Origin: Flagellimonas lutaonensis
Lineage (GTDB): Bacteria; Bacteroidota; Bacteroidia; Flavobacteriales; Flavobacteriaceae
DNA: 64,000 bases
NCBI RefSeq assembly: GCF_000963865.1
Contig: NZ_CP011071.1
Coordinates: 1 to 64,000 of the forward strand
Direction of reading: 5' to 3'
Shown: one piece after another, positions 10,982 to 56,734 of the stretch
Layout: each line of letters begins with the position of its first letter
How positions within the stretch are numbered: the first letter of the stretch is position 1
The notes under the pieces: generated by a model
Databases searched by the model: none
What the model was told of the DNA's origin: nothing
The model's input: only the letters and a program-made list of their open reading frames with translations
Translations under genes and position numbers: made by a program

Positions 10982-11049
10982 CAATCGCAAAATCAACCGC
11001 TGACGAAAATCGTGGATGTTGGTTTTGATTGAACCATAAACCATTTGAC

Positions 11050-53235: not shown

Positions 53236-53282
53236 AAAACGCCTCACTTCGACTACGCCCGGTGACCAAGCCGCTTTTTTTA
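53234..53282. terminator. Bidirectional terminator built from a dispersed repeat
   Basis: The core TCACTTCGACTACGCCCGGTGA (about 53244-53264, imperfect) resembles the flavobacterial CACTTCGACTACGCTCAGTGACC element. It is bounded by AAAAAACGC on the left and GCTTTTTTT on the right, so each transcript ends in a hairpin plus T run. It lies between the convergent S41 protease and btuB genes. Confidence 0.65.
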
Positions 53283-55151
53283 TAGGGTCAAATTCATACC
53301 AACCTTAATATTTCTTCCCCTTGTTGAAAAGCCGATGACCTCAACATAGTCTTCATTGAATATATTCGAGATGTTTAGAAATACCTTCAGCTTATTGGCC
53401 ATTACATCATGGGAAAAATAGGCATCCAGTAACGAAAAGGGTTCTAGTTCCACATCTGAAAAAGTGGCAAAATCGGTATCAATGCGCTGCCCCGTGTACC
53501 GATAGTTCAAAGAGGTAAAGGTTCGTTCGTTCCATCGATATCCCAAAAGTGCATTTATTTTGTGCTTGGGTATACGAATTGCATTGTCGCCCTTTCTTTC
53601 AGCAAAGGTATAATTTATGTCTAGGGAAAGGTCGCGCAACAAACGCCAATGCAGTTCTGCCTCTGCCCCTTGAGCTTCAATTTCAGTGCCTGCGTTAAAA
53701 TATTGAAAAGCAACATTGTCAAAGATGACCGCGTTCTTTTCATTCCTGTTAAAATAGAGCAGGTTGGCCCTCAACGTACTGCCAAGGGCATACTCTACCC
53801 CGGTTTCAACGGTTCGGTTGTCCTCAGCTTCCAAATCGGCATTGGCACCAAAAGCACCGAAAAGTTGGGTCAACGAGGGGGTAATATACGAAGTGGCATA
53901 CGAGGCCATGACCTTAAGATATGCCTTTTTCGAGGTTCTTATTCGGTACGACGGGTTCACGTTGTACACAAACTTGCTGCCATATTCAGAATGGATGTTC
54001 AAACGAACACCTGTATTCAGATTGAATCCCGAATCTGAGATATACACCACGTTGGCATAGGGATCTATGATCCTAAAGCTTCGATTTTCTTCCAATTGGG
54101 CCTCATCTTTTATGTAATTAAGGCCGACGATGGTATGGAGCTTCATGCCAAAGGTGTAGCGATTGTAGAGGTCCACCGTCCAATTCTGCCCCACGAAGGT
54201 ACTCGGAAATGCGCTGATGTTCTCAGAATCGTAGCTGGCAAAGGCCCCGTTCAAATGGAGCGAACCTTGGCCGTACTCAAAACTGGACGTGACCCCTGTG
54301 CGCTTTTGTTCACTGATGAAACGATAAGGGGCATCGACCAACCCGAACGATTCATCATAATCGGTCTTTAGGTTGGTGTTGTTGGCAAATATTATAAAGT
54401 CCAGCTTTTTTATCGGGCGATAGCCTACTTTTACATCTAGCGTGGTTCGTGATGTCACATCTTCCTCCTCGGTACCGATCAACGATGACATATTGCTGGC
54501 ATGGCTATTGGCAAAACCCACCAGATACGTCACATCGCCCAAGGTGCCGTTGATGTTCACACTATTTGAAAAATCGCCCAAGGCATCATACGCTTGGTTT
54601 CTTTGATTTTGGTTAGTGCCCAGGCTAGACTGAAAATTACCAGTTATTTTTTGGCCGCTTGCCTTTTTTGTGGTGATGTTGATGACTGCAGTCGCTGCAT
54701 TGGGCCCGTACAGCGTACTGGCGGCCCCTTTGGTTATTTCGATGGATTCGATGTTGGCAGCCGACAAAAGTCGTAAATCATACTCTTGTGAAAAGGATGA
54801 TGGATCGGTAACCCGCACCCCATCGATAATGATAAGCACCTGACGGCCCCTTCCACCACGGGCAAAGACTCCCAAGACCTCTCCTTGGCGACCGCGGCTA
54901 CCGGTAATCTCCATTCCACTTTTTGAGTTAATGATCTCAGCTACCGTTTTACCTTGGTTGCGCTGCAATTCTTCTTGGGTAATCTTGATAACCGTTTTAC
55001 CCGAATTTTCACGCTTTAGTTCAAAGCGTGAATCACTGACAATCACCTCATCCAACTGCTGTACTTGGGGAGGGTTTGGTTGCACTTGCTGTGCACAAAG
55101 GCCTGTACATGCCACAAAGGCTGCCAGAGGCCCAAAGCATTTTTTGTTCAT
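53280..55151 (-). CDS. btuB: TonB-dependent corrinoid receptor (BtuB-like)
   Basis: 623-aa outer-membrane receptor. A signal peptide (1-21, CTGLCAQQ) is followed directly by the plug: LDEVIVSDSRFELKRENSGK, IIDGVRVTDPSSFSQEYDLR and STLYGPNAATAVINITTKKA. The barrel ends with the aromatic-hydrophobic terminus GRNIKVGMNLTL. It has no carboxypeptidase-regulatory or STN domain. The assignment to cobalamin rests on the cobalamin riboswitch in its own leader and the divergent btuFCD transporter, more than on sequence. The leader from the riboswitch to the ATG is about 100 nt. Confidence 0.9.
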   Translation of the reverse strand: MNKKCFGPLAAFVACTGLCAQQVQPNPPQVQQLDEVIVSDSRFELKRENSGKTVIKITQEELQRNQGKTVAEIINSKSGMEITGSRGRQGEVLGVFARGGRGRQVLIIIDGVRVTDPSSFSQEYDLRLLSAANIESIEITKGAASTLYGPNAATAVINITTKKASGQKITGNFQSSLGTNQNQRNQAYDALGDFSNSVNINGTLGDVTYLVGFANSHASNMSSLIGTEEEDVTSRTTLDVKVGYRPIKKLDFIIFANNTNLKTDYDESFGLVDAPYRFISEQKRTGVTSSFEYGQGSLHLNGAFASYDSENISAFPSTFVGQNWTVDLYNRYTFGMKLHTIVGLNYIKDEAQLEENRSFRIIDPYANVVYISDSGFNLNTGVRLNIHSEYGSKFVYNVNPSYRIRTSKKAYLKVMASYATSYITPSLTQLFGAFGANADLEAEDNRTVETGVEYALGSTLRANLLYFNRNEKNAVIFDNVAFQYFNAGTEIEAQGAEAELHWRLLRDLSLDINYTFAERKGDNAIRIPKHKINALLGYRWNERTFTSLNYRYTGQRIDTDFATFSDVELEPFSLLDAYFSHDVMANKLKVFLNISNIFNEDYVEVIGFSTRGRNIKVGMNLTL

Positions 55152-55190
55152 TTTGGTTTAGTTGCTCGGTAAAGCCATATGCATCGCACA

Positions 55191-55215
55191 TGTAAACTTT
55201 TGTCCCGAAAGTTTA
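55191..55215 (-). promoter_or_regulatory. Expression-platform candidate of the btuB riboswitch
   Basis: On the minus-strand RNA, AAACTTT and AAAGTTT (about 55215-55194) form a local hairpin about 45 nt upstream of the btuB start. The same right arm, GGGACAAAAGTTTACA (55206-55191), is also complementary to the riboswitch-core segment TGTAAACTTTGTCC (55361-55348), 14 bp with one bulged A. The two pairings are mutually exclusive. Confidence 0.5.
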
Positions 55216-55229
55216 ACATTCAGTGTTTG

Positions 55230-55244
55230 TCCGCCAAAGGCGGA
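55230..55244. repeat. TCCGCCAAAGGCGGA palindrome, copy 1
   Basis: 6-bp perfect stem with a 3-nt loop, just downstream of the riboswitch core on the btuB transcript. It is paired with an inverted-flank copy at 55336-55350. This is a REP-like palindrome common in Flavobacteriaceae intergenic DNA. Confidence 0.7.
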
Positions 55245-55335
55245 TGAAAATTTTGGCAGGTCTCCTGGCTCACGTCTTGCAAACCACCTTCCCGTCCCAT
55301 AGTGAAGAACAGTGGTCTTGAAGTTGTTGCAAGCA

Positions 55336-55350
55336 TCCGCCAAAGGCGGA
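55336..55350. repeat. TCCGCCAAAGGCGGA palindrome, copy 2
   Basis: Identical 15-nt core to copy 1, located in the riboswitch variable arm. Flanks are inverted relative to copy 1 (GCATCC...GGACAAA against TTTGTCC...GGATG), so the two copies can also pair with each other over about 18 bases. Confidence 0.7.
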
Positions 55351-55385
55351 CAAAGTTTACAGTTGCGGGAACAGCTCCGGAATTA

Positions 55386-55468
55386 TTGAGGTACGATTTT
55401 AGAGGTACAAAATACGAGTCGCAACAATTTTACAATTCGTAATTCTAAATTCGTAATGGGTACTTCAA
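55386..55468 (-). other. Hairpin insert in the cobalamin riboswitch arm
   Basis: Arms TTGAGGTAC (55386-55394) and GTACTTCAA (55460-55468) are complementary at 8 of 9 positions and frame a 65-nt AT-rich loop holding two near-direct ATTACGAATT repeats (minus strand). In standard cobalamin riboswitches the loop at this point is only a few nucleotides. Likely an inserted dispersed element tolerated by the aptamer. Confidence 0.65.
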
Positions 55469-55554
55469 CTCACCGGATTCCCTTTTCATTCCATGGCGCA
55501 AAATCCATGAAAACCAAAATTCGCAGCGAATGTAACCAATTTATATTTATGGGC

Positions 55555-55562
55555 TACTTTTG
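55555..55562 (+). promoter_or_regulatory. -7 element of the btuFCD promoter
   Basis: TACTTTTG fits TAnnTTTG exactly and ends 5 nt before the btuF ATG, so the mRNA would be leaderless or nearly so. No TTTG at good -33 spacing. It overlaps the presumed promoter region of the divergent riboswitch transcript. Confidence 0.45.
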
Positions 55563-55567
55563 AACCC

Positions 55568-56734
55568 ATGAAAAAAGTCCGATCAAATCCTTTTGCCATC
55601 CTATTGTTCTGTTGTCTTGCCATCGGGTGCCGCAGGCAACAAAAACCATCTGATGCCCTAAAGAGCCCAGCGGAAACAGGGGAAATGGTCACTGTAAGAT
55701 ATGCCCAGGGATTTTCGTTGGAACAAAACACCGATTACACCCTTTTAAAGGTCATGGCCCCGTGGCCCGGAGCGGACAAAGAGTTCAAATATGCGCTGGT
55801 TCCAAGGGCGAAATTACCTTCCCTTACCCTGCCCAAAGGGGTCTATGATGCCATTGTACCGGTGCCGGTGCAGACAGTGGTCGTAACCTCGACCACCCAT
55901 ATTCCAGCTTTGGAGTCTTTGGGCGTATTGGACAAGCTGATAGGTTTTCCCGACACCCAATATGTCTCTTCCCCAGCAGCACGGAAATTGATTTCCGAAG
56001 AAAAAATCCAAGAACTGGGAAGCAATGAGAGCATCAACACAGAAATGGCCCTGGCGCTCAGACCCGAAGTGCTGGTGGGGTTTGCCATCAACAATCAAAA
56101 TACGGCCTACCATACCATCGAGAATGCCGGCATACTAGTATTGTACAATGGTGACTGGACCGAGCAATCGCCTTTGGGCAAAGCTGAATGGATAAAGTTT
56201 TTTGGCGCCCTGTTCGACAAACAAACCACAGCAGACCGTATTTTCAACGAGATTGAGGCATCGTACCAAAAAGTCAAGTCAATGGCCGCCAAGGCCCATG
56301 AGTCGCCCACTGTTTTGAGCGGGGCCCTTTATAAAGACGTGTGGTATATGCCCGGAGGGCAAAGTTGGGCCGCAAGGTTCATCGCCGATGCCAATGCCAC
56401 GTATCTTTGGAAAGACAGTAAGGGCACGGGAAGCCTTGCCCTGAGCCTCGAAACGGTGCTGGAAAAGGGGCAACAGGCCGATTATTGGATATCGCCTTCC
56501 CAATTCACCACATATGAACAGCTGCAATCTGCCAACGACCATTACAAGCGCTTCAAGGCCTTTAAGGAGCGAAACGTTTATACGTTTGCAGCGACCAAGG
56601 GCGAAACCGGCGGACTGTTATACTACGAGCTGGCCCCCCAACGACCTGATTTGGTGTTGAAAGATTTGGTACATATCTTTCATCCCATGTTATTGCCCGA
56701 CCACGAACTGTTCTTTTTCAAACCCATGCAATAA
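55568..56734 (+). CDS. btuF: ABC transporter substrate-binding lipoprotein (BtuF-like)
   Basis: 388-aa periplasmic-binding lipoprotein (lipobox AIGC, cysteine about 21). The TroA/BtuF fold shows VVVTSTTHIPALESLGVLDK, LIGFPDTQYVSS, LRPEVLVGFAIN and GNWTEQ-type NGDWTEQSPLGKAEWIKFFG. Ligand is inferred to be a corrinoid from the divergent riboswitch-controlled btuB; a siderophore or haem cannot be excluded by sequence. The permease starts at the next base after its stop (56735), and the ATPase overlaps the permease, so btuFCD is one operon. Confidence 0.87.
   Translation: MKKVRSNPFAILLFCCLAIGCRRQQKPSDALKSPAETGEMVTVRYAQGFSLEQNTDYTLLKVMAPWPGADKEFKYALVPRAKLPSLTLPKGVYDAIVPVPVQTVVVTSTTHIPALESLGVLDKLIGFPDTQYVSSPAARKLISEEKIQELGSNESINTEMALALRPEVLVGFAINNQNTAYHTIENAGILVLYNGDWTEQSPLGKAEWIKFFGALFDKQTTADRIFNEIEASYQKVKSMAAKAHESPTVLSGALYKDVWYMPGGQSWAARFIADANATYLWKDSKGTGSLALSLETVLEKGQQADYWISPSQFTTYEQLQSANDHYKRFKAFKERNVYTFAATKGETGGLLYYELAPQRPDLVLKDLVHIFHPMLLPDHELFFFKPMQ

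Follow-up and report, generated by a model that had tools for sequence, protein, structure and literature searches.

The window, that is, the whole 64,000-nucleotide stretch of Flagellimonas lutaonensis DNA that was analysed, carries on its minus strand a cobalamin riboswitch aptamer and, 86 nt downstream of it, the gene of a TonB-dependent receptor:

55238-55533, minus strand: cobalamin riboswitch aptamer RF00174 (cmscan, 93.1 bits, model positions 1-189)
53280-55151, minus strand: btuB-like TonB-dependent receptor gene, 623 aa (PF07715 Plug domain, 1.1e-19)

Regarding the aptamer, the match covers the full length of the model, with a score to be set against a gathering score of 31.5, and it is the only RF00174 match that cmscan returned for the 3.27-Mb genome; this bears out the first-pass annotation, which had read the leader of this btuB-like gene as a B12 riboswitch from its letters. 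The aptamer has a long insert, at about 55426-55456 of the window, that includes TTACGAATTTAGAATTACGAATT, and a second genomic copy of this stretch lies at G000:C1:2877095-2877124. Elsewhere in the window, an L19-Flavobacteria ribosomal protein leader (RF03130, 41.7 bits) was found at 10994-11021 on the plus strand.

As for the target, TonB-B12 is the NCBIfam model that scores highest with the receptor (169.8 bits, against a cut-off of 599.7), and BtuC the one that does so with the divergent neighbour gene (208.9 bits, against a cut-off of 334), both scores being below the cut-off; by their domain matches, the genes adjoining the receptor encode a BtuC-like permease (FecCD domain), an ABC protein and a binding protein. 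From these two sub-cut-off top models and the binding-protein and ABC neighbours, the target gene is probably btuB, for B12 uptake. The closest named relatives found for the receptor belong to Flagellimonas and Allomuricauda (57-60% identity).

The regulatory hairpin and its partner loop

Three further features of the minus strand are needed to describe the leader:

55366-55371, minus strand: loop L5, UUCCCG, with UCCCG (55370-55366) as the L13 partner (sequence and RF00174 alignment)
55193-55215, minus strand: P13 hairpin, UAAACUUU-CGGGACA-AAAGUUUA, with loop L13 at 55207-55201 (sequence; P13 located by the same criterion in 142/143 leaders)
55176-55192, minus strand: P14 hairpin, CAUGUGC-GAU-GCAUAUG, 7 bp, immediately after P13 (fold)

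L5 is the known partner of the P13 loop L13 in cobalamin riboswitches, as described in the consulted parts of PMC9600662, PMC10653944 and PMC10907184, and the two loops of the window are complementary at 5/5 positions. The comparison used 143 distinct leaders from the order, with P13 located in 142, and 17 leaders added from named genomes; the hold-out comprised 78 leaders from additional genomes in the same family, with genera partly shared with the discovery set (80 fetched, 2 of them duplicates), and an outgroup sample held 29 loci from other orders of the class. P13 was located by at least 4/5 L13-L5 pairs, so that its frequency is no test, the pairing itself being the location criterion; the tests were permutations of matched pairs, start codons were called mechanically, and the counts are inflated by relatedness among the leaders.

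The P13 arms fit each other far better when matched than when permuted (-5.92 versus -3.48, with 0/5000 permutations as good), and L5 fits its own L13 better than that of other leaders (-7.07 versus -6.79, P=0.0004, n=142); CGCG-type L13 loops, for example, accompany CGCG-type L5 loops. Since both the arms and the two loops coevolve, the local hairpin corresponds, by sequence comparison, to P13/L13, the standard regulatory hairpin of the class. In long leaders with a spacer of 36-56 nt, P14 mostly lies directly after P13; over 78 distinct regions, its region scored 11.2 versus 6.0±0.44 for shuffled sequences, with a score of at least 10 in 60/78.

Three leaders with CGCG-type L5 and L13 (L079, L094 and L117) precede open reading frames that begin with an NLGYPRIG-like sequence, which we take to be the N-terminus found in metE.

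Long-range complementarity in the leader

Two inverted pairs connect the aptamer with the region downstream of it:

55348-55361, minus strand: aptamer segment UGUAAACUUUGUCC, the end of the conserved ACUGUAA and the start of the P6 hairpin (sequence, inverted-repeat search)
55191-55206, minus strand: downstream segment GGGACAAAAGUUUACA, most of L13 and the 3' arm of P13 (sequence, inverted-repeat search)
55336-55350, minus strand: palindrome 1, UCCGCCUUUGGCGGA, within the P6 hairpin (inverted-repeat search)
55230-55244, minus strand: palindrome 2, UCCGCCUUUGGCGGA, between P1 and P13 (inverted-repeat search)

The first pair is the one that the first-pass annotation had noticed: an inverted-repeat search recovered the complementarity of 55361-55348 with 55206-55191, 14 bp with one bulged A, and the local pairing also claimed for the downstream segment is the hairpin at 55215-55193. 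The duplex of the two segments has an energy of -17.5 kcal/mol, and the local hairpin alone -2.9. Among dinucleotide-shuffled aptamers, 17/2000 reached -17.5 with the same P13 segment; this is an unusual value for a single pre-chosen segment, but the annotation had selected its pair from many possible ones.

From this complementarity, a switch had been proposed in which, without B12, the entire 14-bp helix between the aptamer and the 3' side of P13 forms. In its favour, the helix of the window ranks 3/142 among the leaders and 5/234 in the larger set, and alternative structures that involve bases of the aptamer are proposed for other corrinoid riboswitches in the consulted part of PMC10653944. 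Against it, the two segments are neither conserved nor covarying, one half of the outcome that the annotation itself had named as contrary to its claim: matched segments gave -7.39 versus -7.33±0.14 for permuted ones (P=0.34, n=142), and matched pairs had no advantage either among the long-spacer type B leaders (P=0.52, n=57) or among the 78 hold-out leaders (P=0.47). With a fixed register over 200 leaders, 8.92/14 pairs formed in matched and 8.95 in permuted combinations (P=0.74), and pairing was complete (14/14) in 3 leaders. Within the genus, three relatives have UGUAAGCAU where the window has UGUAAACUU, and their helices reach -9.5, -5.1 and -9.7 kcal/mol versus -17.5 for the window. Covariation is blind to a pairing maintained without variation; a second partner for the 3' arm would nevertheless predict greater conservation of that arm, and it is the less conserved of the two (0.67 and 0.49 bits, in 83 distinct long-spacer sequences), which speaks against such a partner. 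Formation of the full helix as a switch is therefore very unlikely in our estimate. What stands of the earlier proposal is that the downstream regulatory hairpin has mutually exclusive partners; the 14-bp aptamer helix is not supported as a conserved one.

The aptamer strand UGUAAG and the 3' arm of P13 give 8.9/14 pairs in any combination; both strands are conserved and complementary by coincidence, which is why such helices turn up occasionally. The long-range helix thus appears to be for the most part a side effect of two strands that are conserved separately and of a species-specific P6 hairpin. The locus is an ordinary cobalamin riboswitch, and its long complementarity is real but lineage-specific. 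Pairing of the P13 segment at any site in the aptamer was also considered and discarded (P=0.04 in 142 leaders, 0.67 in 57 type B leaders; 0.35 for the 5' arm).

The second inverted pair, 55350-55336 with 55244-55230, is larger than the first and had escaped the first-pass annotation. RNAfold, applied to the 412-nt leader, pairs palindrome 1 with palindrome 2 at a probability of about 1; of the long-range helix, it forms the seven pairs nearest the ACUGU end (probability 0.64-0.80), the remaining seven staying at about 0. Minimum free energies were -121.7 with the palindromes paired, -120.9 with P13 forced and -115.3 with the long-range helix forced, and -114.2 when each palindrome folds locally and P13 is present. 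Sampling 2000 structures gave the palindrome pair in 1998, the ACUGU-side half of the helix in 1557 and both together in 1555; P13 occurred in 89, and at least 12/14 pairs of the helix in 0, which argues further against the full helix. Pseudoknots, ligand and tertiary contacts lie outside the folding model, whose results therefore apply at most to the unbound RNA of this one species.

Taken at face value, these folds would describe an unbound state peculiar to this species, in which the palindromes pair across the aptamer together with the half-helix UGUAAAC/GUUUACA, B12 then favouring the aptamer with local hairpins plus P13. The sampling and the difference between -121.7 and -114.2 point to such a state, but local folding of each palindrome can come first as the RNA is transcribed, the model leaves out what the ligand, pseudoknots and tertiary contacts contribute, and palindrome 2 is not present in the leaders of the three genus relatives (G001-G003), so that the state would be at most a recent local addition. 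We regard it as improbable; the long-range helix may nonetheless have a role in this one species, as the half present in the folds suggests.

Of the palindrome sequence, TCCGCCTTTGGCGGA has two genomic copies with that loop, their flanks swapped, both inside the leader. A high-copy repeat was rejected as an explanation: there are 2 copies in this genome, and any copy at all in just 21/299 genomes. At the position matching the palindrome insert, the leader of Flagellimonas flava (L156) carries ATCCGCC..GGGCAAAC, a degenerate insert; the contig of this leader (NZ_FQWL01000001.1) and that of L003 (G001:C2) do not agree position by position over the corresponding stretches.

An L5-like element before the start codon

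The leader of the window is of the long-spacer kind, with its AUG 41 nt beyond P13, and between the two lies one more feature:

55167-55171, minus strand: degenerate L5-like element UACCG, 4/5 pairs to L13, 20 nt before the start codon (sequence)

Many long leaders have UCUCG, UCCCG or UUCCG at this place, which amounts to a duplicate of L5 that complements L13; L003, L068 and L235 carry UUCCG, with 5/5 pairs to L13. The complementarity, the position, the enrichment and a limited covariation of the element were computed directly. In the discovery set, it occurred anywhere in the spacer of 63/96 long-spacer leaders, versus a mean of 8.5 and a maximum of 19 in 1000 shuffles, and within 50 nt after P13 in 59/96 long-spacer versus 1/44 short-spacer leaders. 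It mostly lies 19-24 nt before the AUG, independently of the length of the spacer. The range -18 to -26 was fixed from this set, and in the hold-out 23/35 long-spacer leaders have the element there (shuffle mean 0.64, maximum 5); within 50 nt after P13, it is present in 19/35 long-spacer versus 1/28 short-spacer leaders. Pooling both sets, it is found at -18 to -26 in 82/135 long-spacer leaders, and the other 53/135 have no element with 5/5 pairs in that range. In the other orders it is sporadic: of 29 loci, 26 of them with a called start, four have it (L257, L259, L276 and L283).

Concerning energies, pairing between the P13 segment and the element region reaches -8.55 in long-spacer leaders (-6.55 when shuffled) and -4.27 in short-spacer ones (-4.33 when shuffled). 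Matched and permuted energies of the element region and the P13 segment did not differ significantly (P=0.23), a result attributed to the almost invariant L13. The spacer is 30-200 nt long in 159 distinct leaders, and L13 deviates from CGGGA in 36 of them; of these 36, 6 have an element at -18 to -26 that fits their own L13, versus 2.1 when permuted (P=0.006), and CGGGA would fit 2. With the range -15 to -30, which was chosen later, there are 8 fits versus 2.6 (P=0.0004). Examples are CGGAG with CUCCG (L257), CGGGU with AUCCG (L259) and CGCGU with AUGCG (L276). Permuting all 159 leaders gave 78 fits versus 59.9, a difference confounded by clade.

The pairing is confined to the pentamer, a flank test finding none beyond the five bases of L13 and the element. 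An extended antisequestor, with the 3' arm of P13 and L13 both pairing downstream, was rejected, the real flanks of the element pairing worse than shuffled ones. A swap of partners, the aptamer helix replacing a lost downstream element, was likewise discarded: leaders missing the element have no stronger helix (P=0.98), which counts also against the full-helix switch discussed above.

In many leaders, the element overlaps a hairpin that runs from it to the AUG, here called P15, which scored 8.96 versus 6.00±0.52 for shuffled sequences (0/500; 66 distinct strings). Some P15 hairpins take in the AUG itself (CGUUUUAAU...AUUAAAAUG), and 15/66 distinct element-to-AUG strings have no P15, the genus relative L003 among them. 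The overlap with P15 opens another explanation, namely that UUCCG, UCUCG or UCCCG is bound by the ribosome or a protein, or serves just as the 5' strand of the hairpin at the AUG, the match to L13 being secondary. The rather fixed distance between element and AUG is compatible with this, as is the dependence of the covariation on few variant loops. Such a site, however, would not account for the rarity of the element elsewhere (3/179 mechanical control ORFs; 0/54 ORFs of the window), for its presence after P13 in only 1/28 short-spacer leaders, for the first place of the CGGGA complement among 20 permuted pentamers (62, with 32 for the runner-up, in the discovery set) or for the way the element follows variant L13 loops. 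We judge this explanation rather unlikely, though it weighs more than the species-specific state.

A candidate relay from the aptamer to the start codon

Bacteroidota are mostly without Shine-Dalgarno sequences, and how a riboswitch could control translation there is not obvious. Masking of such a sequence by P13 was not found in the window, as CGAGCAACUAAACCAAAAUG has no GGAGG-like site by eye and 41 nt separate the end of P13 from the AUG; in this and related leaders, the distance from P13 to the start codon is about 40 nt or more, too far for P13 to cover the AUG directly. In Flavobacterium johnsoniae, of the same Shine-Dalgarno-less phylum, start regions are little structured from -20 to +20, according to the consulted part of PMC6847099, and this makes structure in the start region a plausible regulatory target.

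In the arrangement that we favour, with modest confidence that it is the actual one, the leader is a cobalamin riboswitch whose P13 docks on L5 and whose L13 relays the state of the aptamer to the L5-like element. When B12 is bound, L13 (CGGGA) would dock onto L5 (UCCCG) of the aptamer; P13 alone is a weak A-U hairpin, and docking would stabilise it and lower btuB expression, as is expected from the class. When B12 is absent, the free L13 would pair with the L5-like element 18-26 nt before the AUG, and the start region would stay open. Docking of L13 on L5 would thus free the element, which in many relatives could join the AUG hairpin P15; without B12, L13 would compete with P15 and hold the start open. 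That L13 pairs with the element, when it does so and to what effect, we infer from the leader sequences. Two findings in the window run against the relay: its own element has only 4/5 pairs to L13, and ligand-free folding gives P13 in 89/2000 samples, with another state dominating. Across the relatives, the relay is weakened by the non-significant energy test, by pairing that stops at the pentamer, by the strings that have no P15, by the 53/135 long-spacer leaders with no 5/5 element at -18 to -26 and by the scarcity of the element in other orders.

The wider claim is more tentative and falls somewhat short of probable: many flavobacterial cobalamin riboswitches would carry a decoy of L5 about 20 nt before the AUG, and the choice of L13 between the two would carry the signal of B12 binding across 40-100 nt to a start region that has no Shine-Dalgarno sequence, in many cases by freeing a strand that covers the AUG. 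What deserves pursuit is the L5-like element that many relatives carry ahead of the AUG, and a common second partner of L13 near the AUG is a testable answer for a widespread regulator of B12 uptake. The striking complementarity of a single sequence may be lineage-specific while the candidate switch shared by the family sits elsewhere.

Control could instead be exerted on transcription, by an intrinsic or Rho-type terminator. Premature termination is proposed for Bacteroides thetaiotaomicron (PMC12751083, consulted part), and cobalamin riboswitches were transcriptionally active in 10/15 Gram-negative taxa (PMC12121620, consulted part), but a simple consensus scan for the intrinsic type gave 0 terminator-like sites in 55050-55700, and we consider this form of control distinctly improbable at the locus.

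In the literature searched, which was mostly open-access, no description of an L5-like element near the start codon was found. The cobalamin riboswitch before a TonB-dependent transporter of Flavobacterium psychrophilum, of the same family, shares the class of regulator and the kind of target; no expression platform was found described for it in the consulted part of PMC9723704. In the corrinoid riboswitch of Priestia megaterium metE, the P13 region likewise has an alternative downstream partner without corrinoid (PMC10653944, consulted part); there, the 3' side of P13 pairs with a terminator strand, whereas in the window no terminator-like site was found and the L13 loop alone matches, near the AUG. 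Finally, the RF00174 riboswitches with an L5-L13 kissing loop, for example E. coli btuB and env8 (consulted parts of PMC9600662, PMC10653944 and PMC10907184), resemble the window in the aptamer, in the UCCCG of L5 and in a P13 loop that can dock on L5; unlike them, the window shows no Shine-Dalgarno-like sequence before the start codon of this gene, and it has its AUG 41 nt past P13, an extra P14 and the L5-like element before the AUG.
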